DNA of 32,957 nt from Actinomycetota bacterium (lineage in GTDB: Bacteria > Actinomycetota > Thermoleophilia > RBG-16-64-13), in assembly GCA_012729575.1 (NCBI GenBank), contig JAAYCW010000027.1:1-32957 (forward strand), in the 5' to 3' direction. How positions within the stretch are numbered: position 1 is the stretch's first letter; the number at the start of each line of letters is the position of its first letter. Below the pieces are notes generated by a model. It did no database searches. It saw nothing but the letters and a program-made list of their open reading frames with translations, and was not told where the DNA came from. A program made the position numbers and the translations under genes. Below, piece after piece: positions 8,738-29,184 of this stretch.

Positions 8738-10213
8738 CTACCGGAAGAGGGTGATGAACGCGCTGCCCACCGCGTCCCAGAGCCAAGAAGGTACGATCCC
8801 GATGATCAGTGTGGCAATGGCGCTCACCGCCAGGGACCCGGCCATGCCACCAGAGATGGGATGCTTGACCGCGTATTCCCCCTCGGGCTCCCGGAAGAAC
8901 ATATAGATGATCACCCGGAGATAGTAGTAGGCGGAAACCGCACTGAGCAGCACTCCGATCACGGCCAGCCACCACAGACCTGCCCATACCACCCCGCTGA
9001 ACACGTAGAACTTGCCGATGAAACCAGCCGTCCCGGGAATCCCAGTCAGGGACAGCAAGAACAGCGACAACAACACCGCCGCCCAGGGGGAACTCCGTCC
9101 CAAACCCGCCATCTGCTTCAGCGTGTGGTCGAAGCTCTCGGGTCTCTGGCTCTTCAGATAGGCGAGCACGCCGAAAGCGCCCAGGTTCATGAAGGTGTAG
9201 GCAGCCAGGTAGAGCATGACTCCCTGGCCTGGGTACGAATTCCCCGCCCACCCCATGGCTCCCACACCCGTCAGCAGATAGCCGGCGTGGGCGATCGACG
9301 AATAGGCGAGCATCCGTTTCACGTTCGTCTGCACCAGAGCAAAGACGTTCCCCACCAGCATCGTCACTATGGAAAGGACGATGAAGAGCAGCCCCCACTC
9401 CTTGACGGCGCCGGGGAAAGCCACGACAAAGGCGGCCATGATCGCGGAGAAGGCGGCAGCCTTCGGCCCGACTGAGAAGAAGGCCGCGACCGGCGTGGGC
9501 GCACCTTGATACACATCCGGTGTCCACATGTGGAAGGGGGCCGCCGACACTTTGAAGGCCAGCCCCATGGCAACAAGGAAGACTGCGAACAGAACGGCCA
9601 CACTGCCGCCCTGTCCGCCCAGAACCTGTCCGACGGCCACGTAGTTTGTCGCCCCTGATTGCCCATAGACCAGGGAGATGCCGTACAGCATGATGGCGGA
9701 GGCGAACGTCCCCGTTAGAAAGTACTTAAGCGCCGATTCGTTTGAGCGAGCGCGATACCGGAAGAAGGCCGCCAGCAGGTAGCTGCTGATGGCCATGAGT
9801 TCAAGCGCCAAGTAAAGCAGGATGAAGTCACGGGCGGCCGCCATAAGATCCATGCCTATGACCGCAAACAGGATCAGAGCGTAGTACTCGCCCAGATGCC
9901 GCCGGTGCGCCTCTAGGTAGAGGGGCGACATGAGTATGGTCAGTCCCGCGCCGATCGCGAACAACACTTTGAAGAAGACCGCCCAATCGTCCAAAACCAG
10001 CATCCCCGCGAAGCTCACCCGATGTTGGCCGACAAGAGCCAGCGACACCACCAAGGAGCCGGCCAGACCGGCCAACGCGATGCCCATGACGGCCGTCTTA
10101 TCACCTCTGCCTGGGCCCTCCGTCTTCAGGAAAGGCTCCACCAAGAGGACGGCGCATGCCGCCACCAGCAGGATCAACTCGGGGATCACGGGAACGAGGT
10201 CAGGCACCTGCAT
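8738..10213 (-). CDS. nuoN: NADH-quinone oxidoreductase subunit N
   Basis: Multi-TM antiporter-like subunit (FKVSAAPFHMWTPDVYQGAPTPVAAFFSVGPKAAAF) in nuo operon. Confidence 0.95.
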   Translation of the reverse strand: MQVPDLVPVIPELILLVAACAVLLVEPFLKTEGPGRGDKTAVMGIALAGLAGSLVVSLALVGQHRVSFAGMLVLDDWAVFFKVLFAIGAGLTILMSPLYLEAHRRHLGEYYALILFAVIGMDLMAAARDFILLYLALELMAISSYLLAAFFRYRARSNESALKYFLTGTFASAIMLYGISLVYGQSGATNYVAVGQVLGGQGGSVAVLFAVFLVAMGLAFKVSAAPFHMWTPDVYQGAPTPVAAFFSVGPKAAAFSAIMAAFVVAFPGAVKEWGLLFIVLSIVTMLVGNVFALVQTNVKRMLAYSSIAHAGYLLTGVGAMGWAGNSYPGQGVMLYLAAYTFMNLGAFGVLAYLKSQRPESFDHTLKQMAGLGRSSPWAAVLLSLFLLSLTGIPGTAGFIGKFYVFSGVVWAGLWWLAVIGVLLSAVSAYYYLRVIIYMFFREPEGEYAVKHPISGGMAGSLAVSAIATLIIGIVPSWLWDAVGSAFITLFR

Positions 10214-11740
10214 CTAAAAACCCCCGAAGAACGAGCCGGCCAGTCCCAGCAGGCTGTCGCCGTGCTCAGCCAGGTATGGTTGCACCTGAGCCATTATGTT
10301 CTGTGCCGGAGCATGGAGCAGATTCAGGAATGTGTGCGGGTAGAGGCCGATCCATATGGCCATCCCCACGAGCGGAACGAGGGTGATAATCTCCCGAGCG
10401 CTCAGATCTTTGAGGCTGAACCACTTCTCGTTGGCCTGCTGGAACATGGTCCGCTGATACATCCAGAGCAGGTAAGCGGCACCCAGCACGACCCCCACCG
10501 AAGCTATGACAGCGAAGACCTTCATGTACTGGAAGACTCCCACCAGGATCAGGAACTCGCCCACAAAACCATTCAGGCCCGGTAGGCCCAGACTTCCGAC
10601 GACGAACAAGCTGAAGAAGGCGGCGGCGACAGGCATGGGCTTGGCCATACCGCCGTAATCTCTGATCAAACGGGTGTGCGTGCGATCGTAGAAGAAGCCC
10701 ACCATCATGAAGAGAGCCCCCGTCAGGATCCCGTGGTTGACCATCTGCAGCACGGATCCCTCGATGCCCTGCTGGTTGAAGGTGAACAGACCTGCCGTGA
10801 CAAACCCCATGTGGCTTACCGAGGAATAGGCCACCAATCGCTTCATGTCGGGTTGTACCAAGGACATAGCAGCTCCGTAGACCACCGCGATGGCCGAGAG
10901 GATCAGGACGGGTAGCATGGCTTTCACCGCCACCTCGGGAAAGAACCCGATGCAGAAGCGGATCATGCCGTAGACCCCCATCTTGAGGAGCACGCCGGCC
11001 AGGATCACCGATCCGGCGGTGGGCGCCTCAGTGTGCGCATCGGGGAGCCAGGTGTGCACCGGGAACATGGGTACCTTGATGGCGAACGCGAGGAAGAACG
11101 CGGCGAAGGCCCACACCGCCAAGGAACCGCTGAAGCCCGCCTGCTGTAACGCCAGAATGTCGAAGGTGAGCGGTCCGCCGTTCTTCGCGTACCACCAGAC
11201 GATGGCCAGGATGGCCACCAGCATGAGCACCGAGCCCACGAAGGTGAACAGGAAGAATTTGATGGCTGCATAAACCCTGCGAGCACCGCCCCACAAGCCG
11301 ATGATGAAGTACATGGGAATGAGCTGGATCTCCCAGAACACGTAGAACAGGAAGAGGTCCATGGACACGAACACGCCCAGCATCCCCGTCTCCAGCACGA
11401 GAAGGCTGATGAAGAAGGCGAGTCCTCTGTCCTTGATGGAGTTCCAGGAACCCAGGATGGCCACCACGGAGAGCAGAGTGGTAAGCAGCACCAATACCAG
11501 CGAGATTCCATCGATCCCCAGGTGATAAGAGATCCCCAGACTCGAGATCCAGCTGTGGTCCTCGACGAACTGGTAGGCCGCGGTACCCGTTCGAAACCGA
11601 GCCGCCAGGTACACAGACAGAGCGAGGGTGAAGATGCTGGTGATGAGCGCTGTGGTCTTGTAGGCGGAGGGTCTTCCGCGCATGAAGATGAGCATGACCA
11701 GCGCGCCGGCGACAGGGAGGAAGGTGAGAGCGGTCAGCAT
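10214..11740 (-). CDS. nuoM: NADH-quinone oxidoreductase subunit M
   Basis: Multi-TM; KVPMFPVHTWLPDAHTEAPTAGSVILAGVLLKMG. Start set to the ATG at 11740 (MLTALTFLPVAGALV), which overlaps the nuoL TGA (TGATG); the supplied ORF extends upstream spuriously. Confidence 0.95.
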   Translation of the reverse strand: MLTALTFLPVAGALVMLIFMRGRPSAYKTTALITSIFTLALSVYLAARFRTGTAAYQFVEDHSWISSLGISYHLGIDGISLVLVLLTTLLSVVAILGSWNSIKDRGLAFFISLLVLETGMLGVFVSMDLFLFYVFWEIQLIPMYFIIGLWGGARRVYAAIKFFLFTFVGSVLMLVAILAIVWWYAKNGGPLTFDILALQQAGFSGSLAVWAFAAFFLAFAIKVPMFPVHTWLPDAHTEAPTAGSVILAGVLLKMGVYGMIRFCIGFFPEVAVKAMLPVLILSAIAVVYGAAMSLVQPDMKRLVAYSSVSHMGFVTAGLFTFNQQGIEGSVLQMVNHGILTGALFMMVGFFYDRTHTRLIRDYGGMAKPMPVAAAFFSLFVVGSLGLPGLNGFVGEFLILVGVFQYMKVFAVIASVGVVLGAAYLLWMYQRTMFQQANEKWFSLKDLSAREIITLVPLVGMAIWIGLYPHTFLNLLHAPAQNIMAQVQPYLAEHGDSLLGLAGSFFGGF

Positions 11741-13638
11741 CACAGGAACACCACCACCGTCACCACTACGAAAAGCCCGATGAACATGCCCAGCAGATAG
11801 TTCTGCACCCGGCCGCTCTGGACGGGCCGCGCAACCTGCCCAGCACGCTGCCACAGCCAGGCGGTGCCGTGCACCGCGCCGTCGATGATCTTCTCGTCGA
11901 AGTTGCGCCACACCCAGCGCGACCCGTCGACGGTGAGCCGCACCACAGTGGCCGCGTAGAACTCGTCGACGTAAAATTTGTTGTAGACCACCCGGTAGAC
12001 CGGCTGCAACCTCCGTCCCGCCAGCGCCGGCAGGTCGGTCCGCTTGACATACATGAACCAGGCCAGCACGATGCCTAACATGGCCACGATCACAGACACT
12101 ACCATGAGGACGTAGTCGGTTGCCGCAAGGCTGTGCTCATGAATCCCCAATATGTGGTTGGCGGAGCCAAAGACCGGCTCCAGGAAGCTCTGCAGGACCC
12201 CCAACTTGCCGGGTAGGCCCAGGAACCCGGCCAACAGAGCACCGAGAGCGAGGACTATCAACGGGACGATCATCGACCAGGGACTCTCGTGGATGTGCTC
12301 GCCGGTCTCCTCGTCCATACGCGGTTTGCCAAAGAAGGTCATGAAGATCATGCGGAAGGTATAGAAGGCCGTGATGAAGGCTGCAATGAGCCCCACAGCC
12401 CAGAACAGGTACTGCCCGTCACGCCATACCGAGCCCAGGATGTCATCCTTCGACCAGAAACCGGCGAAGGGAAAGATACCCGAGAGCGCCAGCGCTCCGG
12501 CCACGAGAGTGTAGTAGGTGGCGGGGATACGCTTACGCAGACCACCCATTTTGTCCATGTCCTGCTCGCCGCCCAACGAGTGGATCACAGACCCAGCCCC
12601 GAGAAAGAGTAGGGCCTTGAAGAAGGCATGCGTCATCAGGTGGAAGATGGCGATGGCCCATGCTCCGACTCCCAGAGCCATGAACATGTACCCAAGTTGA
12701 GAGACGGTGGAGTAGGCCAGCACCTTCTTGATGTCCTTCTGACAGATACCGATGACAGCCGCGAAGATGGCGGTGAAGGTCCCGATGATTCCCACCACTA
12801 GAAGCGCGGTGGGCACGCTGGCGAAGATGACCGCACTTCGGGCCACCAGGTACACGCCGGCTGTGACCATCGTGGCCGCATGGATGAGGGCCGACACCGG
12901 AGTGGGACCCTCCATGGCGTCCGGCAGCCAGACATGCAGCGGGAACTGAGCCGACTTGCCCATAGCCCCCATGAAGAGCAGCAGAGCGATGGCCAGGAGC
13001 GCCCCTTCCCCGATGCCCCCGACGCCTACCTGCTGGAACACGCCCACGTAGTCCAGGGTGCCGAAGGTCACGAATATCAGCATCACTCCCAGACCGAACC
13101 CGAAGTCGCCGACCCGGTTGACGATGAAGGCCTTCTTCCCGGCGGCAGCCGCCTCGGGCTTGTGGTAGAAGTAACCGATCAGGTAGTAGGAGCAGAGACC
13201 CACGGCTTCCCAGCCCAAGTACAGCAGCAGGTAGTTACCGGCCAAGACCAGCAGTAGCATGCTGAAACCGAACAGGCTCATATAGGCGAAGAACCGGTAG
13301 TAACCGGTATCGCCGTGCATGTAGCCCTTGGAGTAGATGAAGATGAGCAGGCTGATCCCGGATACCACCAGGCACATGACCGAGGACAGCTGGTCCATCT
13401 GGAGAGAGAACGGCACTTGGAAGCTCCCCACCGAGAACCAGCGCCATAACTCGACCACCACCGGCTCAGCACTGCCCCGGATCTGGATGAACGCGGCCAG
13501 CGAGAGACCGAAGGAACCGGCCATAGCGAGAACCGGCAGCCAGTGGGCCGAATCCTTGATCCACCACTTCCCGAAGATGAGAGTGATGATGAAGGCCACC
13601 AGCGGCAGCACCGGTATGAGCCAGATGTAGCTCCCCAT
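11740..13638 (-). CDS. nuoL: NADH-quinone oxidoreductase subunit L
   Basis: Multi-TM; GKSAQFPLHVWLPDAMEGPTPVSALIHAATMVTAGVYL. Confidence 0.96.
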   Translation of the reverse strand: MGSYIWLIPVLPLVAFIITLIFGKWWIKDSAHWLPVLAMAGSFGLSLAAFIQIRGSAEPVVVELWRWFSVGSFQVPFSLQMDQLSSVMCLVVSGISLLIFIYSKGYMHGDTGYYRFFAYMSLFGFSMLLLVLAGNYLLLYLGWEAVGLCSYYLIGYFYHKPEAAAAGKKAFIVNRVGDFGFGLGVMLIFVTFGTLDYVGVFQQVGVGGIGEGALLAIALLLFMGAMGKSAQFPLHVWLPDAMEGPTPVSALIHAATMVTAGVYLVARSAVIFASVPTALLVVGIIGTFTAIFAAVIGICQKDIKKVLAYSTVSQLGYMFMALGVGAWAIAIFHLMTHAFFKALLFLGAGSVIHSLGGEQDMDKMGGLRKRIPATYYTLVAGALALSGIFPFAGFWSKDDILGSVWRDGQYLFWAVGLIAAFITAFYTFRMIFMTFFGKPRMDEETGEHIHESPWSMIVPLIVLALGALLAGFLGLPGKLGVLQSFLEPVFGSANHILGIHEHSLAATDYVLMVVSVIVAMLGIVLAWFMYVKRTDLPALAGRRLQPVYRVVYNKFYVDEFYAATVVRLTVDGSRWVWRNFDEKIIDGAVHGTAWLWQRAGQVARPVQSGRVQNYLLGMFIGLFVVVTVVVFL

Positions 13639-13648
13639 ACCTGCTCCC

Positions 13649-13975
13649 CTAACCCTTCATCCGATCGAAGAGGTCGACCATGAGCGTCTGACGATTCCGG
13701 AACAAGGCCGTGGCGATAGCAAGACCCACGGCCGCCTCCGCGGCTGCGATAGCCATGACGAACAGCACGAAGTTCTGCCCCGCCAGATTCTCGTGGAAAC
13801 GTGAGAAGCCGACCAGATTTATGTTCACCGCGTTCAGCATCAACTCGAGCGAGAACAACACGATGAACAGGTTGCGCCGGATCAGCATCCCGGCGGCCCC
13901 AACTATGAAGAGCGCCGCGGAAAGGTAGAGGTACCAATCGACGGGGATGGCCATATCTGCCGGCGTCCCTCCCAT
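13649..13975 (-). CDS. nuoK: NADH-quinone oxidoreductase subunit K
   Basis: ~108 aa, GMLIRRNLFIVLFSLELMLNAVNINLVGFSR...IAAAEAAVGLAI. Confidence 0.95.
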   Translation of the reverse strand: MGGTPADMAIPVDWYLYLSAALFIVGAAGMLIRRNLFIVLFSLELMLNAVNINLVGFSRFHENLAGQNFVLFVMAIAAAEAAVGLAIATALFRNRQTLMVDLFDRMKG

Positions 13976-13980
13976 AACGG

Positions 13981-14568
13981 CTACACCTCCTCCTCTAGGG
14001 CTTCAGGGGTGGGCCGCTCTCCTGGCTCCCAGACACGCGTGGTGGCACCTGCAGTCTTCTCTCTCTTGACCAGGATGATCGCCCCGACCATTGCTACGAG
14101 AAGGACGACCGAAGCCACCTCGAAGGGCAGCAGCATGTTGTTGAAAAAGGCGTCGCCGAACACTTTCGTGCCATCTCCGGCCGCGCTGATGACCTCCGGG
14201 GTGAAACCGCCCCTCGCCGACGTGAACGTGATACCGGCCAGCACGATCACGAACTCTGCCAGCACCAGGATCGAAAGGGCCAGCGCGATCCACCGCTGCC
14301 GCCTGTGCGTCTGCTCCTCTTGCTCGAAGGTGCGGAGGTTGAGGAGCATGATCACGAAGACGAACAGCACCATGATGGCGCCCGCATAGACCAGTATCTG
14401 GACCACGGCGAGGAAGTACGCCTGGGTGAGGAAGAAGATGGCCGCCACGTTGAGAAAGACGAACACGAGGACGAGTAGCGCATGTACCACGTTCTTGCGC
14501 GTGATGGTGCCGATCCCACCCGCCACAGCGAGAGCCGCAAACACGATGAACAGGATCTTCTCGGTCAT
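13981..14568 (-). CDS. nuoJ: NADH-quinone oxidoreductase subunit J
   Basis: Multi-TM; VHALLVLVFVFLNVAAIFFLTQAYFLAVVQILVYAGAIMVLFVFVIMLLNL. Confidence 0.95.
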   Translation of the reverse strand: MTEKILFIVFAALAVAGGIGTITRKNVVHALLVLVFVFLNVAAIFFLTQAYFLAVVQILVYAGAIMVLFVFVIMLLNLRTFEQEEQTHRRQRWIALALSILVLAEFVIVLAGITFTSARGGFTPEVISAAGDGTKVFGDAFFNNMLLPFEVASVVLLVAMVGAIILVKREKTAGATTRVWEPGERPTPEALEEEV

Positions 14569-15092
14569 GAGCGGCCCCGCTCATTCGCGGTGCCGGCCTC
14601 CATAGGCGCCGGCGCGGTGTCCTCCGTAGGCTGGGCAAACACCTCTTTGTGCACGTAGACCTGGTTGGCGATCAACTTCTCCTTGTCGAGGTAGAAGTCG
14701 TCCTTGTCGAACGTGGCGAGCTCGTAATGCCGGGTCATAACAATGGCTGCCTCAGGACATACCTCCTCACAGAACCCGCAGAAGACACACCGGGAGAGAT
14801 CCAGTTTGAAGCTGGCCGGGCGGCTTCGGCCGTCGGCCGTCTGCTCTCCCACGATGTCGATGCACCCCGACGGGCAGATGGTGGCACACAGCATGCAGGC
14901 CACGCACTTCGTGTCTCCCGTCGCGGGATCGGTGAGCAGAGCCTGGACTCCACGGAAGCGCGGATAGACCTGTAGCTTCTCCTTGGGATACTCCACCGTC
15001 ATCTTGTCGACGACGAAGTATGTGCCGGTCACCGACATCCCGCGCAGGATGTCGACAAAGGCGCCCTTCTTGATGATGTCCGCCAAGCCCAT
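14565..15092 (-). CDS. nuoI: NADH-quinone oxidoreductase subunit I (2x[4Fe-4S])
   Basis: Two ferredoxin motifs CVACMLCATICPSGC and CVFCGFCEEVCP. Confidence 0.95.
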   Translation of the reverse strand: MGLADIIKKGAFVDILRGMSVTGTYFVVDKMTVEYPKEKLQVYPRFRGVQALLTDPATGDTKCVACMLCATICPSGCIDIVGEQTADGRSRPASFKLDLSRCVFCGFCEEVCPEAAIVMTRHYELATFDKDDFYLDKEKLIANQVYVHKEVFAQPTEDTAPAPMEAGTANERGRS

Positions 15093-15093
15093 T

Positions 15094-16128
15094 TCAATTC
15101 ACCGCGCTGATGACGACGGCAGTGACCAGGAGGTTTGCTATCGACAAGGGGAGTAGCACCTTCCAGCCGATAGACATCAGCTGGTTGTAGCGATAGCGGA
15201 TGATGGTCCAGCGAACCCACATGTAGACGAAGATCAAGAAACAGATCTTGAGGAAGAGCCAGATGGGCCCCGGAATGAAATCGAGCACCTCCAGAGGCGC
15301 GCGCCACCCCCCAAGGTACAGGGTCGAGACGATCATCGAGACGACTACCAAGTTCACGTATTCGGCGAAGTAGAACATCCCCCAGCGCATACCTGAATAT
15401 TCGGTCAGATGGCCGGCAACCAGCTCTTGTTCGGCCTCGGCCAGGTCGAACGGGGTGCGGTTCAGCTCGGCGATGCTGGCCACGAAGAAGACCAACCCAC
15501 CCACGATCTGAGGGATCCAGTACCAATCCCAGAAGTTGCCCGCCTGTCCGTCGACGATGTCGATCAGGCTCATGGATCCGGCCATCAACATGACGCCCGC
15601 CGCCGAGAAGCCCATGGCCAGCTCGTAGGAGATCATCTGCGCACCGGCGCGGAGACCGCCGAGCAGCGAGTAATTGCTGTTCGATGACCAGCCGCCCAAT
15701 ACCACGCCGTATACGGCCATGGCTCCCATGGCGAGGAACAGCACCAGGCCTGCATCGAAACTGGCTATCACGTAGTCGAAGCGATATCCGAACAGGTTCG
15801 CCTCACCACCCACCGGGCCGAAGGGGATCACCGCCATAACCAGGAAGACCGGGACGAAAGCGATATACGGTGCCAGCTTGAACACCGGCTTGTCCGACTT
15901 GGCCGGTATCAGATCCTCCTTGGAGATCAGCTTAAAGATGTCGCCGAACGACTGCAGCGAACCCCAGGGTCCCAGATAGGTGGGACCCACCCGGCCGGCA
16001 AAGAAACCGGCGAACTTCCTCTCGAAAAAGATGGCGAACGCCACAATCAGGATGATCAGCACCGGCATGACGATGGCCTTGATAATGAGGAATATCAGTT
16101 GGGCCACGGGGTCGCTCACCGGTCGCAA
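15094..16128 (-). CDS. nuoH: NADH-quinone oxidoreductase subunit H
   Basis: FFERKFAGFFAGRVGPTYLGPWGSLQSFGDIFKLISKED...RTPFDLAEAEQELVAGHLTEYSGMRWGMFYFAEYVN. Confidence 0.96.
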   Translation of the reverse strand: MRPVSDPVAQLIFLIIKAIVMPVLIILIVAFAIFFERKFAGFFAGRVGPTYLGPWGSLQSFGDIFKLISKEDLIPAKSDKPVFKLAPYIAFVPVFLVMAVIPFGPVGGEANLFGYRFDYVIASFDAGLVLFLAMGAMAVYGVVLGGWSSNSNYSLLGGLRAGAQMISYELAMGFSAAGVMLMAGSMSLIDIVDGQAGNFWDWYWIPQIVGGLVFFVASIAELNRTPFDLAEAEQELVAGHLTEYSGMRWGMFYFAEYVNLVVVSMIVSTLYLGGWRAPLEVLDFIPGPIWLFLKICFLIFVYMWVRWTIIRYRYNQLMSIGWKVLLPLSIANLLVTAVVISAVN

Positions 16129-17399
16129 TCCCCCAGCACGACGTCGACACTGGCGAAGATGGCTATCATATCGGCCACCATCTCACCTTCTACCAGGGCC
16201 GGCACCGCCTGCCCGTGATAGAAACTGGGAGTGCTGAACCGGACCCGGGCGGGTTTCGCGCCGCCCTCCGACCTTATGTAAACGCCCATCTCGCCTTTGG
16301 GAGCCTCGACGCATCGATAGACGGACCCCCGCGGCACCTGCGGTCCCCTGAAGACTTGGTAGAAGTCCTGGATCATGGCCGCGGAATCACGAAGCACGTT
16401 CTTCTTCATGGGTAGCGAATGAGCTGCGTCAGGGGCCAAGAATGGTCCAGGAGGCATCTTATCCAGACACTGGCGGATGATCTTGCACGACTCGCGCATC
16501 TCCTTCATGCGGACGAGGAAGCGATCATACACATCGGCGTTGTACTCCACGGCGACGTCGAACTCCACCTCGGGATAGGCCGCATAGGGCTCGTCCTTCC
16601 GCAGGTCGCGCGCTATGCCGGCGGCGCGCAACGTCGGGCCGGTCACCCGCCAGGCGTGGCAGTCCTCAGAGGTGAAGATGCCTACGTTCTTGGCCCGCTT
16701 AAGGAAGATGCGGTTCTGCTTGATGATGCGCTCGTACTCCGCCAACCGCTTCGGCAGGAAGTCGATGACCTTGCGGCACCGATGGTCGAAGCCGTCGGGT
16801 AGGTCCTTGGCCACGCCGCCGATGCGTGCAAACGAATGGGTCATACGCGCCCCGGTAAGCATCTCGAACAGATCCAGCACGTACTCGCGGTCGCGGAAGC
16901 AGATGGTGAAAAACGTCTGCGTCCCCAGATCCATGATGGAGGTCCCCAACCACAGTATGTGATTGGAGATGCGGCACAGCTCGTGCGTCATGGTTCGGAT
17001 GTAGCGACCCCGGGCCGGCACCTCAACGCCCATGAGCTTCTCAGCAGCTTCGCAGAACCCGTGGTTCATAGCGAAACCGCTGATGTAGTCCAGACGATCG
17101 GTGAGCGGGATGATCTGGTGGTAGGTGCGGTGCTCGCACAACTTCTCCACCCCGCGGTGTAGGTTGCCTATCTCCGGTCGTACGGCCAGTATGACCTCTC
17201 CATCCAGATCCAGCACCGCCCGATACACCCCATGCATGGAGGGATGTTGGGGACCCATGCTGATGGTCATCACGTCGCCGGTAGGCTCCAAGTGCCGCCG
17301 TGTGCGGTCCTTCCGCTCCCGCAGTTCCTCGAGACTGGGCCTGCGCGAGAGGGCCTGCGCCGCCGGCACCAGTCCCTGCGTATCCTGGGTCCCGCTCAT
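16116..17399 (-). CDS. nuoD: NADH-quinone oxidoreductase subunit D
   Basis: MGPQHPSMHGVYRAVLDLDGE...GNLHRGVEKLCEHRTYHQIIPLTDRLDY; C-terminal FASVDVVLGDCDR. Confidence 0.96.
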   Translation of the reverse strand: MSGTQDTQGLVPAAQALSRRPSLEELRERKDRTRRHLEPTGDVMTISMGPQHPSMHGVYRAVLDLDGEVILAVRPEIGNLHRGVEKLCEHRTYHQIIPLTDRLDYISGFAMNHGFCEAAEKLMGVEVPARGRYIRTMTHELCRISNHILWLGTSIMDLGTQTFFTICFRDREYVLDLFEMLTGARMTHSFARIGGVAKDLPDGFDHRCRKVIDFLPKRLAEYERIIKQNRIFLKRAKNVGIFTSEDCHAWRVTGPTLRAAGIARDLRKDEPYAAYPEVEFDVAVEYNADVYDRFLVRMKEMRESCKIIRQCLDKMPPGPFLAPDAAHSLPMKKNVLRDSAAMIQDFYQVFRGPQVPRGSVYRCVEAPKGEMGVYIRSEGGAKPARVRFSTPSFYHGQAVPALVEGEMVADMIAIFASVDVVLGDCDR

Positions 17400-17915
17400 C
17401 TAGATCTTCCCCCGCAGATCAGTACGGATGCGCCCACCCACTGTGCCGCGCAAAGGGAAGTCCTTTCTCATCGGGAAGCCTTCGAAATCCTCGGTCGTGA
17501 GCAGCCGGCGCAGATCCGGATGGCCGGCGAAGACTATGCCGTACATCTCCCAGGCTTCGCGTTCGTCGAACCCCGCCGACGGCCAAAGTCCGGTGATAGT
17601 CGGCAGATCTTGCCCCTCGGCCAGTGGGGTGGTTACACGCAGACGATGGCCGTGAGTGTGCGAGAGCAGGTGGACCACCACCTCGAACGGAGCCCCAGTA
17701 CGTTCCGGCAGGTGATCGCCGAGCAGGCAGTCGAGTTGATCGAAGGCCAGCTCTCTTGCGCTCCTGCAGAAGCTCAGGACCCGCATCCAATCCTCCGGCT
17801 CTACCGTGATGGTCAGGTCGCCGCAGCACTCGGTCTGCTTCCGCAGCCTGCCGCCGAACCGCTTCTCCAGCTTGGCCAGAACGACCGTCAGCGAAGTGTC
17901 CAGTCCCTCGTTCAA
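17400..17915 (-). CDS. nuoC: NADH-quinone oxidoreductase subunit C
   Basis: [47 protein letters not shown]. Confidence 0.95.
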
Positions 17916-18511
17916 GGCCTTGGCTCTCCGTGAAGCAAGACCTCGCGGGCGGGGATGCGCCGCAACCCATCGTAAGCATGCCTACTCTGCTTGACCCGGT
18001 CCCGGATCATCTCCAGACCCTGCCAGAGGGCCTCCGGGCGCGGAGGACAACCCGGAACGTAGACATCCACGGGGATGAGGCTGTCTATACCTTGGACCAC
18101 GTGATACGTGTCCCAGACATTGCCTGACACCGCGCACGAACCCATGGCCAACACCCATTTGGGGTCAGGGATCTGCTCGTAGAGCCTGACCACCCGAGGA
18201 GCCATCTTGATAGTGCACCAGCCCGCCACGATCATGCCGTCGGCTTGGCGGGGTGAGGCGCGCATGGCCTCCATCCCGAAGCGGGCCATGTCGAAACGGG
18301 ATCCCCCCAGAGCCATCATCTCTATGGCGCAACAGGCCAGCCCGAAGAGTAGGGGCCAGAACGAGAAGCTCCTGCCGAAGCCGAGCACCCGCTCGATCTG
18401 CACCGGCAAAGCTATGCCTCCCGGCAGACGTACCGGCCCACCCATGACCTCGTTCTGCTGCAATGCGGCACCGACCTCTGCGTCGGACGGCCGGCGTAGG
18501 GGATCGTCCAT
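17912..18511 (-). CDS. nuoB: NADH-quinone oxidoreductase subunit B
   Basis: [21 protein letters not shown]...GSCAVSG...[11 protein letters not shown] Fe-S ligands. Start at ATG 18511 (TGATG with nuoA stop) or ATG 18520; the longer ORF is spurious. Confidence 0.94.
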
Positions 18512-18879
18512 CACTCCCATTCGAACACGCCCTTCTTCCAGGCGTACACGTAGCCGACAAGGAGTATGGCGATGAAGATGAACATCTCGACAAGCGCGGG
18601 CGTGCCCAGCGATCGTAGTGAGACCGCCCAGGGATAGATGAACACCGCTTCCAGATCGAACAATACGAAGAGCACCGCGACCAGGTAGTAATGAACGTTG
18701 AAGGGCGCCCGGGCATCCGCCATTGGCACCACGCCGCACTCGTAGGGCTCACCCTTGCTGGGATTAACGCTCTTGGGTGAGAGCAGGTGTGAAATCGCGA
18801 TGAAAGCAACAGCCATCGCGGCACCGATAGCGAACATGATCCCAAACTGGATGAGCAAGTCGATGGTCGGATTGACCAA
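18511..18879 (-). CDS. nuoA: NADH-quinone oxidoreductase subunit A
   Basis: [52 protein letters not shown]. Proposed TTG start at 18879 with upstream GAGGTG Shine-Dalgarno. Confidence 0.92.
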
Positions 18880-18916
18880 GAAGACACCTCGCGTCGGGTA
18901 TGAATCATCAGTCGGC

Positions 18917-18937
18917 GGGCCGCCCTGACGGCGGCCC
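18917..18937. promoter_or_regulatory. GC-rich perfect hairpin in the nuoA-tatC divergent intergenic region
   Basis: GGGCCGCC-CTGAC-GGCGGCCC, 8-bp stem, 5-nt loop; 38 nt upstream of the proposed nuoA start. Confidence 0.45.
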
Positions 18938-19082
18938 ACTCTAGCAGTTGTGACGATAACAAACCCTGAATCCAAACGCAACTGACTGCGTTTCCAGCCC
19001 GCCCTTCACCCTCCACGACCGCCACGCAGTGCGCGCCGGATCGGGCACCCGGTCTCCCCTGCCCCTGGGATATACTTCCGGG

Positions 19083-19880
19083 GTGAGTAGAGATCCGAGC
19101 AAGAAGATGCCTCTCATGGGGCACTTGGGTGAACTGCGGAGACGCCTCACCTACGTGGCCATCGCCGTCGTTGTCTGCGTCATAGGCTGCTTCATCTTCA
19201 AAGATCAGGTGCTGGCCGTCGTCATACACCCACTCGGGAGCACCGACGTCAACGAGTTGACCACTCTGGGCGTGACTGAGAGCTTCATGAACGTGCTCAA
19301 GGTGTCCATCTATGCCGGGCTGATCGTTTCTCTACCCTTCATCCTCTACCAATTCTGGGCGTTCATCATGCCGGGACTCTATGAGAACGAGAGGAAGAGC
19401 ATCATCCCTTACGTCATTGCGACCACACTGCTCTTTCTCGGCGGAGTCGTGTTCGCATATTTCATAGTCCTCCCGGTCGGGCTGAGGTTCATGCTGGGCT
19501 ACGGAGACGAGTACTTCGGCCAACTTCTGCAGGCGGAGAAGTACATCAGTTTCGTGACCATGTTCCTTTTGGCTTTTGGAGTCGTCTTCGAGCTTCCCCT
19601 GATCATGATGCTGCTGGCCTGGTCCGGCCTAGTCGATCATGTGAAGATGCGCAAGGTACGCAAGTACGCCATCCTGGCCGAGGCCATTATCGCCATGGTG
19701 TTCACTCCCAGCCAAGATCCGGTCAGCATGGCCCTCATGCTGATCCCCCTGATAATCCTGTATGAGATAGGTATATTGCTGGCAAAGCTCATCGGCAGAC
19801 GAAGAGCAAAACGGGCCTTGCGGGAGGAACCTGTTGTATTGGGGGATAGCGGTCTGCCCGACTTGGGGAGCGAGGAGTGA
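19083..19880 (+). CDS. tatC: Sec-independent (twin-arginine) protein translocase TatC
   Basis: MGHLGELRRRLTYVAIAVVV...FWAFIMPGLYENERKSIIPYV...FGVVFELPLIMMLL...VFTPSQDPVSMALMLIPLIILYEIGILL. Start GTG 19083 or ATG 19107. Confidence 0.95.
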   Translation: MSRDPSKKMPLMGHLGELRRRLTYVAIAVVVCVIGCFIFKDQVLAVVIHPLGSTDVNELTTLGVTESFMNVLKVSIYAGLIVSLPFILYQFWAFIMPGLYENERKSIIPYVIATTLLFLGGVVFAYFIVLPVGLRFMLGYGDEYFGQLLQAEKYISFVTMFLLAFGVVFELPLIMMLLAWSGLVDHVKMRKVRKYAILAEAIIAMVFTPSQDPVSMALMLIPLIILYEIGILLAKLIGRRRAKRALREEPVVLGDSGLPDLGSEE

Positions 19881-19910
19881 GCACAGCCGAACCGCTTGTC
19901 GGCCAAGGAT

Positions 19911-19925
19911 GATGGTGTTACCATC
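19911..19925. promoter_or_regulatory. candidate FadR/GntR-family operator (GATGGT-GTT-ACCATC)
   Basis: Perfect 6-bp inverted repeat with 3-nt centre containing TGGT-N3-ACCA, the general half-site layout of FadR/PdhR/LldR-type sites; lies 7 nt upstream of the ATG at 19932 of a FadR-type regulator. Confidence 0.65.
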
Positions 19926-19931
19926 TTACCT

Positions 19932-21548
19932 ATGAGTGCTAGGGGAAATGAAGGGGATGACAAGGGCAGAACGCCCGCTCTTACGGACGGCCTCAAACCT
20001 GTCACGACGCAGACCGTCTCCGACCAGGTAGCCGACCAACTCCGACAGTTGATCTCCTCCGGCCAGTATAAGCCCGGGAAACGTATCCCCTCGGAACGTG
20101 AACTGGCCGTCAAGCTTGGGGTCGGGCGGCCTGCGGTGCGTGAAGCGCTGCGAGAGCTGAAGGCTCAGGGCTTCCTCATCACGGGCCGCGGCGCTCAGGG
20201 AACAACCGTAGCCGACCTTCCTTCGCCCAGCTTCTCCGCGCCCTTGACCTCACTGGTTGGGGCGGGGGCGGAGCGGATCATCGAGTTGATGGAGGTCCGC
20301 AGCGCTGTGGAGATAGAGGCGGCCGGGCTGGCCGCCCGGCGGGCGACCCTGGAGGATCTCCATCGGCTGTCCATACTCCTCACGGCGCCTGGAGATGTGA
20401 TCACTCCCGAGGAGGATGTGGCCTTCCACGCCGCCATCGCGGAGGCAACCCACAACCCTCTCATAGCCCGCGTCATTCAGGAGCCGGTCGAGCTTCTTCA
20501 CGACCACATGGCCGCGATATTCAGCGCCTATTACAAGGAGCCAGGTGGGGCGATCAGCCTGCAGCAACAGCACGATGCCATTCGACGGGCCATCCGGTCA
20601 GGCGACGAGCAGAGGGCCCGTCAGGCGATGCGCCACCATCTCGATCACGTGGCCCGCGGTCTGGCACAACTGGTTGGCACCGGCCGCGTTATGCGTCTGG
20701 TCTTCCTTGGTCTAGATGGAACCCTGCTTGCGGGTCCACGGCTCATCTCGGAGAGGGCAAGACGTACCATCGCGAACGTCCGCGAAGCCGGGGTGGAGGT
20801 GGTGCTGGTGTCTTCCCGTCCGCCGAGGGAGATTCGCCCTTACCACCAAGAGCTCGGATTGCTGACGCCCTTCATCGCCTGCAGCGGCGCACTACTTTGG
20901 AACGCGCAGGCGGCGGCAGGCCTGGTACACGAGTCGGTATCCGCGGAACTGGCGGAAGAGATCGTGGCGCTCGGCAGAGATCTAGGAGCAATCGCCAACG
21001 TCGAGAGCGACGACGAGTGGTTCACTGATCGTTTGCGAAACCTTGAACGAGACAGCATCACAGATTATGAGATCTCTGAGCCCAATGGGGTAGGGATGGT
21101 AGATGAGGTTCTGCACTCCGGGGAACCTATCGACAAAGTCTTTCTGGACCTACGAGATCTGCCGGAAGAAGTCGCGATTACGGCCTCGGTCACTCTCAGA
21201 CGAGCGTTCGAGGGCCGCGCGACCGTCGAAGAGAAGGCCCGCGGTATTGTGGACGTCATCTCCTTGGACGCTTCCAAGGCCGCGATGGCTCAGCAGTTGG
21301 CGCGACGGATGGCTATACCGGCCGAACAGACCATGGCAATCGGAGACGACGACAGCGATGCTGCTCTTCTGCGATGGGCGGGCATCGGGGTGGCGATGGG
21401 TAACGCCACTCCGGCTGCAAAAGCCGCGGCCGACACGATCACCTCTTCGAATATGAGAGACGGCGTTGCGGAAGCTCTGGAACAATGGCTGTTGAGAGGC
21501 AGGTCAGCAGGTGCCAACGTGAGCGTGCCCAAACCCGGGTTGCTCTGA
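19932..21548 (+). CDS. FadR-subfamily GntR regulator (wHTH + FCD) fused to a C-terminal Cof-like HAD domain
   Basis: wHTH: VADQLRQLISSGQYKPGKRIPSERELAVKLGVGRPAVREALRELKAQGFL. FCD: DVAFHAAIAEATHNPLIARV...HDAIRRAIRSGDEQRARQAMRHHLDH. HAD: LVFLGLDGTLL, VVLVSSRPP, SKAAMAQQLA, AIGDDDSDAALLRWAGIGVAMGNA. One uninterrupted frame. ATG 19932 preferred over TTG 19896, which would put the palindrome inside the CDS. Confidence 0.92.
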   Translation: MSARGNEGDDKGRTPALTDGLKPVTTQTVSDQVADQLRQLISSGQYKPGKRIPSERELAVKLGVGRPAVREALRELKAQGFLITGRGAQGTTVADLPSPSFSAPLTSLVGAGAERIIELMEVRSAVEIEAAGLAARRATLEDLHRLSILLTAPGDVITPEEDVAFHAAIAEATHNPLIARVIQEPVELLHDHMAAIFSAYYKEPGGAISLQQQHDAIRRAIRSGDEQRARQAMRHHLDHVARGLAQLVGTGRVMRLVFLGLDGTLLAGPRLISERARRTIANVREAGVEVVLVSSRPPREIRPYHQELGLLTPFIACSGALLWNAQAAAGLVHESVSAELAEEIVALGRDLGAIANVESDDEWFTDRLRNLERDSITDYEISEPNGVGMVDEVLHSGEPIDKVFLDLRDLPEEVAITASVTLRRAFEGRATVEEKARGIVDVISLDASKAAMAQQLARRMAIPAEQTMAIGDDDSDAALLRWAGIGVAMGNATPAAKAAADTITSSNMRDGVAEALEQWLLRGRSAGANVSVPKPGLL

Positions 21549-25422: not shown

Positions 25423-25446
25423 GCGTCCCACTGCTCGCAGCCTATC
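25418..25446. terminator. inverted repeat spanning both convergent stop codons; weak bidirectional terminator candidate
   Basis: GATAGGC (25418-25424) / GCCTATC (25440-25446), 15-nt loop; each arm contains one of the two TAG stops. No T-tract. Confidence 0.3.
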
Positions 25447-27859
25447 CGTCTCCCACTGATCCACCACTGTATGAACCCCAGGTCCAGTCTCTGACAAGAG
25501 GCATGTCCTCTCCGTGCTCTCTGATGTAGCGGCCGTGGTCGACGTGGATGTCGCGCACCAACTGCCTCAGATGAGCCGCGCGTACCCCCAGGCCCGGAAC
25601 CCGGTCGATCACATCGCGCACCAGACTGAAACGGTCGAGATCGTTCAGCACGGTCATGTCGAAGGGCGTGGTGGTCGTGCCTTCTTCCTTGTATCCCCTC
25701 ACATGCAGGTTCCGGTGGTTGGTGCGACGGTACGTGAGGCGGTGGATCAGCCACGGGTAACCGTGATACGCGAAGATCACCGGCCGGTCGACAGTGAACA
25801 GACTGTCAAACTCCGCGTCGGAGATGCCGTTGGGGTGCTCATCCGCCGGCTGCAGCGTCATGAGGTCCACCACGTTCACCACTCGGACCTTGAGATCGGG
25901 CACGTACTTCCGCAGGAAATCCACAGCGGCCAACGTTTCGATGGTGGGGACGTCGCCGGCGCAGGCCATGACCACGTCCGGCTCGCCACCCTGGTCGTTG
26001 CTCGCCCACGGCCAGATTCCGATACCCGCGCTGCAGTGACGTATAGCCGAATCCATGTCCAGCCACTGCGGCTGCGGCTGCTTGCCGGCGACGATCACGT
26101 TGACGAGATCCCGGCTCCGCAGGCAGAGATCGCTCACATAGAGGAGACAGTTGGCATCGGGGGGGAGATAGACCCTAGTAACCGACGCTTTCTTGGTGAG
26201 CACGTGGTCAATGAAGCCCGGGTCTTGGTGAGAGAAACCGTTGTGATCCTGCCGCCAGACGTGAGACGTGAGCAGGTAGTTGAGGGAAGCTACCGGTCTG
26301 CGCCAGGATATCTCCTCGCAGACATCCAGCCATTTCGCGTGTTGGTTGAACATGGAGGCGATGATGTGGATGAAGGCCTCGTAACAGGAGAAGAAGGCGT
26401 GACGCCCGCTCAGCAGGTAACCCTCCACCCATCCCTGGATGGTGTGCTCGCTAAGGATCTCCATCACCCGTCCTGTCGGAGAGAGACGGTCATCGCCGGG
26501 CAGGATGGCGGCATTCCAGGTACGAGGTGTGACCTCCAAGACCGCGTTCAAACGGTTCGATGTGGTCTCATCCGGACCGAACAGACGGAAATCGGCCTGC
26601 TCCAGGTTGGCCTGCATCACCCCGGCCAGAAATTCTCCCATGGTCCTCGTGGCCTGTCCGGTCGTTCCACCGGGCGACGGCACATCCACAGCGAACTCGC
26701 GAAAATCGGGCAGCTCCAGATCGCGCAGAAGCAGCCCCCCGTTTGCGTGGGGGTTGTCTCCCATGCGCCGAGTGCCCTCGGGCGCCAGATTGGCGAGCTC
26801 CGGCCGGAACGCCCCGGTCTCATCGAATAGCTCCTCAGGCTTGTAGCTCTTCAGCCACTCCTCGAGCAGCCTGACGTGCTCGTCCGTCATATCGGAGAAC
26901 GGCACTTGATGCGAGCGAAACGTGCCCTCGGTCGGAACCCCGTCCACGGTCTTCGGACCCGTCCAGCCCTTCGGAGTCACCAGCACAATGACCGGCCATG
27001 CGGGGCGCTCTACGATGCCTTCCACGCGCGCCCTCCGTTGGAACCGTTGGATGTCGTCCAACACGCGGTCCAAGGTGGCGGCCATCAGCTGGTGCATCTG
27101 CATGGGGTCATCGCCCTCGACGAAATACGGCGTGTGCCCGCACCCTCGCAGGTACTCGGCAAGTTCCTCCCGCTCTATCCGGGCAAACACCGTCGGATTG
27201 GCGATCTTGTATCCATTGAGATGGAGGATGGGTAGCACCGCCCCGTCGACGGCCGGGTTCAAGAACTTGTTCGACTGCCATGAGGCTGCGAGGGCGCCGG
27301 TCTCAGCCTCCCCGTCTCCTATAACACAGGTCACGATCAGATCCGGATTGTCAAACGCCGCTCCGTATGCGTGCGAGAGACAGTACCCCAGCTCGCCGCC
27401 TTCGTTGATGGAACCCGGAGTCTCGGCCGCAACGTGGCTGGGGACACCCCCGGGAAACGAGAACTGTTTGAACAGCCGTTGCATACCGGTCTCGTCTTGA
27501 GTGATCCCGCTGTAGTACTCGGTGTAGGTGCCCTCCAGATAAGTGTTGGCCACCATCGCCGGGCCCCCGTGACCGGGTCCGCACACGTAGATCATGTCGA
27601 GTTCCCGAGCCTTGATCACTCGGTTGAGATGCACGTAGACGAAGTTGAGCCCGGGACAAGTGCCCCAATGGCCCAGGAGTCGCCCCTTTATATCGTCGCG
27701 GGACAGAGGACGGCGAAGGAGCGGATTCTCCTTCAGATAGATCTGACCCACCGACAGGTAGTTGGCCGCCCTCCAATAGGCGTTCATGCGCTCCAATACC
27801 GCCGGATCGAGGGGTTTGGGCGACTCGGGCAAGAGGCCGGAAGAGTTGTCTGTGGTCAT
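25442..27859 (-). CDS. xfp: xylulose-5-phosphate/fructose-6-phosphate phosphoketolase
   Basis: [89 protein letters not shown], ~805 aa. Confidence 0.97.
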
Positions 27860-29184
27860 AGTGGTCCTCCCTCAGACGAAGGGACGTGATCGGGAACCGC
27901 GCCGGACGCCTCGCCGCGGCGCGATGCGCCGGCGTCGATCCCTCCAAATACCAGTTCATATGTATGACGGGCGATCATCAGCTCTTCATTGGTGTGTACG
28001 AGCATCACCGAACAGGACGCGCCCGGCGTACTCACGATCGACGCGTTCGCCTGGTTCCTTATCGGGTCCATGACGACACCCAGATATTCCAAGCCCTCGC
28101 AGATGAGCGAGCGGACGGTCACCGCGTTCTCCCCTATCCCCCCCGTGAAGACCAGCAGGTCCAGCCCGCCCAAGACCGCGGCCAGCGACCCGATGGTCCT
28201 GCGCGCCTGATAGCAGAACATCTCAACCGCCTGCGCCGCGGCTGCATGGCCGCCGGCGCGCAACTCCAACAGCGTCTCCATGTCGGCCGTCTCCCCCGAC
28301 ACCCCCTGCAGGCCGCTCTCCTTGTCGAGAAGGCGTTCCAGAGTCTTGTCATCGTAGCCGCATTCCCGGACCAAGTAGATCAATACCCCAGGGTCCAGGT
28401 CGCCGCTGCGGGTCCCCATCATGAAGCCGCCCAACGGGGTCATGCCCATGGTGGTCTCCACCGGGTGACCGTCAAGACAGGCCACCATGCTGCCACCGTT
28501 GCCCAGATGGGCGATCACCACACGGCCCTTCGCCCGTTCCGCGAGCACGCTCAACACGTATTCGTAAGACAGCCCGTGAAACCCATACTTGTGCACTCCC
28601 TGGTCGAAGAATCGACGGGGCAGAGGGAGCCGCCGGGCGATCTCGGGCATTCCGGCGTGGAACGCGGTGTCGAAACAGGCCACCTGGGGCAAACCGGGCC
28701 GCTGCGCCCGAAGGGCTTCGATGACCCGCAATCCGGCCGACATGTGCAACGGCGCCCAGGCCCTGTGCTCCCGCAGGTCATTGATCAACTCAGGCGTGAG
28801 TATCTTCGGACTGAAATGATTCGGCCCACCGTGGACCACCCGGTGCCCGATAGCCTCGATGGATGGAAGCTCCCTATCGGACAAGACGGCCAAGGCTTGG
28901 TCGATGGCGTATTCGTACTCGACGCTGTCCAGAACGCGATCGGCAAACGTCTCCCCGCTACAGTCGACGAACCACAGCCTTCCGCCGCCCTGTCCTATCC
29001 CCTCAACCGCCCCCCGGGCCAGCAACTCTTCCCCGGGACCATCTTCGGGCAGTCTCGGTCCCGACCCATCCTCCGCGGGCCCCCTGCCCCTGGGTGGCCC
29101 CATCTCATAAAGATGGAACTTCAAGGAGGAGGACCCACTGTTGATGCACATGATGGTCTGGCTGGCGGCCACCGCCTCATCCAC
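27856..29184 (-). CDS. ackA: acetate kinase
   Basis: [86 protein letters not shown]-type motifs; ATGA overlap with xfp. Start at 29184 or 29151. Confidence 0.97.

Follow-up and report, generated by a model that had tools for sequence, protein, structure and literature searches.

A single gene in the stretch of DNA analysed here (the window; 32,957 nt of contig JAAYCW010000027.1, assembly GCA_012729575.1, forward strand) encodes a GntR-FCD-HAD fusion, hereafter the window protein, in which a FadR-type transcription factor continues into a sugar-phosphatase-like HAD domain. With moderate confidence, we interpret it as an FCD repressor that controls its own gene and carries a second domain, of phosphatase origin, that would bind a phosphometabolite and, in those lineages that have lost catalytic aspartates, would not hydrolyse it. 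The motif I losses, a conserved putative operator and a probable leaderless start are new relative to the preliminary description of this sequence.

The frame runs on the forward strand from ATG 19932 to the stop codon at 21548 (538 aa) with zero interrupting stops, and is also open from 19896. It encodes a winged-helix DNA-binding domain (residues 30–92; 20019–20207; PF00392, E = 2.9e-20), an FCD ligand-binding domain (residues 118–238; 20283–20645; PF07729, E = 5.5e-22) and a Cof/YidA-type HAD domain with a C2 cap (residues 254–521; 20691–21494), the last matched by Hydrolase_3 over its full length (PF08282; residues 258–516, E = 3.1e-47, profile positions 2–255 of 255). All three Pfam matches exceed their curated cut-offs; among NCBIfam models, the Cof subfamily (TIGR00099) scored over its cut-off and the LldR, PdhR and GlcC models under theirs. 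In sequence and PDB fold comparisons the HAD part grouped with YidA (1rkq) and related HAD-IIB phosphatases. A GntR winged helix followed by FCD places the protein in the FCD (FadR) subfamily, and domain profile and fold place its C-terminal part among the Cof-type HAD-IIB hydrolases. The original proposal that one frame joins all three domains, the HAD domain complete with its cap, is confirmed.

Within the actinobacterial family to which the window belongs, 14 of 18 genomes, from 10 of 12 genera, have the full-length fusion (47–88% identity), as a single gene and not as the two separate genes whose presence in relatives had been raised as a possibility; the named relatives are uncultured Actinobacteria, e.g., RBG_16_64_13. 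The FCD/HAD junction, correctly described earlier as lacking a stop, aligned without insertions or deletions across all 14 proteins, and Met254 (ATG 20691) is replaced by Val, Ile or other residues in most of them. A separate internal start at this ATG is thus unsupported, and the indel-free junction together with the unconserved Met254 indicates that all three domains are produced in a single polypeptide. Given that the genomes are mostly metagenome-assembled, one might suspect an artefact, either an overlooked frameshift or stop codon or a frame that yields two products; however, the identical open junction in 14 of the 18 family genomes argues against an assembly fluke, and with the low dN/dS described below and the variable residue 254 it makes such an artefact extremely improbable.

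Beyond the family, the fusion was not found in about 1,500 distinct genomes sampled, in overlapping draws of 399 genomes from the class and 398 from the phylum, and in 299, 250 and 201 genomes from three further phyla entered via Pseudomonas, Streptococcus and Chloroflexi records, respectively. These draws are samples, the large searches having scored few candidates per genome, and absence of the fusion outside the family is likely. Longer HAD matches elsewhere, starting from residue 207–216, turned out where read (L026 and L030) to be frames running through into unrelated upstream sequence and not fusions, as did two plain HAD matches that were read (L018 and L028). Unfused FCD proteins of G013 and G017, which adjoin pyruvate:ferredoxin-oxidoreductase-like genes, were rejected as positional orthologues. 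One genus without the fusion (g11) has an unfused FCD regulator with 43% identity (L123, 8940–9695; L124, 9127–9792), adjoining pyruvate:ferredoxin-oxidoreductase-like genes.

Metal binding is not universal among FCD proteins. The window protein has the Asp and His residues of an FCD metal site (Asp162, His166, His214 and His236), all four invariant in the 14 fusions, and the spacing of its histidines (166/214/236) equals that of the metal-site residues His148, His196 and His218 of LldR (PMC4746285), suggesting that the FCD pocket is of the metal-carboxylate type.

Motif I of the HAD domain reads VFLGLDGT in the window protein (Gly-Leu-Asp at residues 260–262; 20709–20717), with Gly260 at the position of the nucleophile Asp in the DxDGT motif of active HAD phosphatases. 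The other residues expected of such enzymes are present, namely the motif II Ser/Thr (Ser294), the motif III Lys (Lys449) and the motif IV Asp pair (Asp472 and Asp476), and these four are invariant in the 14 fusions. Motif I is an intact DxD in eight fusions and has lost Asp in six (window protein, GxD; L002, GxG; L004 and L009, DxG; L007, NxD; L011, NxG), both aspartates being gone in L002 and L011. By comparison, among free-standing Cof relatives (n = 72) the nucleophile Asp is present in 70 of 71 and the second Asp in all 71, and DxD is therefore the likely ancestral state. On a protein tree built without the motif I columns, intact and lost motif I were separated by five changes (bootstrap range 4–5), only two of which are forced by strongly supported branches. 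Other positions also set the fusions apart: the motif II Gly is found in 65 of 71 free Cof proteins and in none of the 14 fusions, the motif IV Asn in 70 of 72 and five of 14, respectively, and residues such as Arg299, Trp323, Glu358, Lys402, Arg408 and Arg509 never vary among the fusions and are seldom found in free Cof proteins. All HAD motifs are canonical in five fusion members.

Despite these losses the HAD domain is under purifying selection: where dN/dS could be estimated it was about 0.05–0.16, comparable to the FCD part, although the ratios are rough because dS approaches saturation in many pairs. This also holds for the window/L002 pair, in which both proteins have lost the nucleophile. 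An AlphaFold2 model showed the HAD fold intact, with high confidence, despite the lost Asp; the model was poor in the FCD part (12 sequences), and we draw no claim from it on domain packing. Since the other active-site residues (Ser294, Lys449, Asp472 and Asp476) are invariant and dN/dS is low, the HAD domain has been retained in the loss lineages, apparently not as an enzyme. Mutating the HAD nucleophile Asp is the usual route to substrate-trapping mutants, and a ligand trap would be expected to look like this, lacking the reacting Asp in an otherwise preserved pocket. The motif I losses in an otherwise conserved domain suggest an enzyme turning into a sensor.

Immediately upstream of ATG 19932 lies a perfect palindrome, GATGGT-GTT-ACCATC (19911–19925, + strand), that fits the operator consensus of the FadR subfamily, TNGTNNNACNA (PMC2230225), and overlaps a predicted leaderless promoter; we consider it a putative, probably autogenous operator. 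It is conserved upstream of the fusion gene in 12 of the 14 genomes, the mean majority-base frequency of its 15 bases being 0.91 vs. 0.47 and 0.41 in the flanks, and TGGTNNNACCA occurs twice in the window vs. 0.28 matches expected. At the L010 locus, TGGTAAGACCA precedes the upstream YchF-like gene of a probable operon, and no operator was seen at the L011 fusion locus. The predicted -10 element is TACCAT (TANNNT; 19919–19924), its first T 13 nt upstream of the ATG, and its place and form match those of actinobacterial leaderless genes (PMC3160421); a -35-like hexamer, TTGTCG (19896–19901), lies 17 nt further upstream. TTG 19896, which had been taken as a possible start codon, is unlikely to serve as such: it coincides with this hexamer, the conserved operator and -10 element lie between it and ATG 19932, and, since TACCAT sits at the leaderless -10 position at this distance from TTGTCG, it is probably part of the -35 box.

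Conservation of the operator before its own gene points to autorepression. No other conserved operator was found near the fusion gene, either between nuoA and tatC or at other neighbours. Across the 18 family genomes, TGGTRTTACCA matched exactly 21 times and its reversed control 18 times; roughly half of the 21 matches are the autogenous site, and the non-autogenous ones had no common target gene.

The fusion and its conservation, the purifying selection, the motif I losses and the conserved putative operator are evident from the sequences themselves; that the protein represses its own gene, that its HAD domain binds a ligand and that the domains are coupled is what we infer. Early in the history of one actinobacterial family, an FCD-type (FadR/LldR-like) regulator would have acquired a sugar-phosphatase domain of the YidA/Cof type at its C terminus. 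The protein would bind the TGGTNNNACCA operator over its own leaderless promoter and repress itself, with the metal-carboxylate FCD pocket as its first input. Although the nucleophile or the general acid was lost repeatedly, the HAD domain would still have its binding residues for Mg2+ and a phosphorylated ligand; in the loss lineages, including that of the window, it would sense a second ligand without hydrolysing it, a short linker connecting it to the final FCD helix. Both functions offered by the preliminary description bear on this reading. A two-input metabolite sensor gains support because both pockets keep their ligand or metal residues and the HAD domain is under purifying selection despite catalytic loss, the inputs themselves being predicted; a moonlighting regulator/phosphatase is doubtful for the window protein, whose nucleophile position is Gly260. 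More tentatively, a sugar-phosphatase domain taken up by a family of FCD repressors may have turned, in about five parallel events, into a sensor that traps its substrate without hydrolysing it, giving a factor that responds to a carboxylate and a phosphometabolite.

Against a sensor stands the retention of DxD in eight of the 14 fusions, five of them with all motifs canonical, where catalysis may persist; it is also odd for a two-input sensor that no target beyond its own gene was found. Both points agree with a self-regulated (trigger) enzyme, in which most members would have a working phosphatase in the HAD domain, with GntR-FCD serving mainly to set its expression through autorepression, the motif I losses being secondary decay or variants with residual activity. 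The eight DxD members also keep the Lys, Ser and motif IV Asp residues, the gene's own operator is the only conserved one, and a second full-length Cof protein is usually missing from the genome: in 12 of the 14 carriers Hydrolase_3 has no full-length match besides the fused domain, a count that also favours the sensor. However, the domain stays conserved in the six members with losses, even where both aspartates are gone (L002 and L011), and many members with intact DxD differ at the motif II Gly and motif IV Asn; we rate the trigger enzyme as rather unlikely. That the HAD domain is a structural or oligomerisation module binding no regulatory ligand would agree with a fold retained while catalytic residues vanish and with the short, indel-free linker, yet invariance of Ser294, Lys449, Asp472 and Asp476 and of the fusion-specific polar residues Arg299, Glu358, Lys402, Arg408 and Arg509 exceeds the needs of a scaffold, and this explanation is improbable.

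FCD-type GntR regulators (LldR, PdhR, GlcC and NanR; C. glutamicum LldR, 2di3; T. maritima TM0439) share with the fusion the winged helix-FCD order, the metal-site His spacing (compared with LldR) and a FadR-type operator form, which the putative site of the fusion gene fits; they stop after FCD, and the fusion continues with a HAD domain of 270 residues. YidA and Cof-type HAD-IIB sugar phosphatases match this whole domain, including the cap, and share its Lys and motif IV Asp, but the fusion is joined to a DNA-binding regulator and has lost the nucleophile or acid Asp in six of 14 members. In Enterobacteria (NZ_CP077309.1, CP061233.1), the neighbouring genes dgoR (FCD regulator) and yidA (Cof phosphatase) together cover 90–92% of the fusion at 28–30% identity, but as separate genes without a fusion; this adjacency possibly links FCD regulators to Cof phosphatases elsewhere. 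MocR/PdxR (GntR with an aminotransferase fold) and ROK repressors (from sugar kinases) likewise sense through a repurposed enzyme fold; they differ from the fusion in using other enzyme folds and, for MocR, in having no FCD domain. No described protein of the GntR-FCD-HAD layout was known to the preliminary description, and we found none in the open-access literature.

Enzyme-to-regulator evolution is usually known only from its first and last stages. Among close relatives of this fusion, motif I ranges from complete through partly to fully lost in a pocket otherwise preserved, a graded series in which the change from catalyst to sensor could be tested one protein at a time. If the sensor reading is true, the family would hold a natural series of enzyme-to-sensor intermediates, and a second effector domain would be added to the FCD regulators, which make up a very large group of transcription factors in bacteria.

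The order nuo (reverse strand), tatC, fusion gene is kept in nine genomes, followed mostly by a CaCA antiporter gene or genes beyond it; on deeper branches the fusion gene lies at other loci, in some cases close to electron-transfer-flavoprotein-like genes or immediately downstream of a YchF-like gene (neighbours in relatives were identified by eye). In the window, the nuo (complex I) operon (8738–18981, - strand) is divergent from tatC and the fusion gene, and the gap between nuoA and tatC holds a block, GACGATAACAAA, conserved in 7–8 of nine genomes and possibly the nuo -10 region. tatC also looks leaderless: at about 19080–19090, TATACT lies a few bases upstream of a GTG start, an arrangement conserved in several relatives, and therefore the listed start, GTG 19029, is probably too far upstream. 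Downstream, adjacent phosphoketolase-like and acetate kinase-like genes (25442–29184, - strand) are conserved in several relatives.
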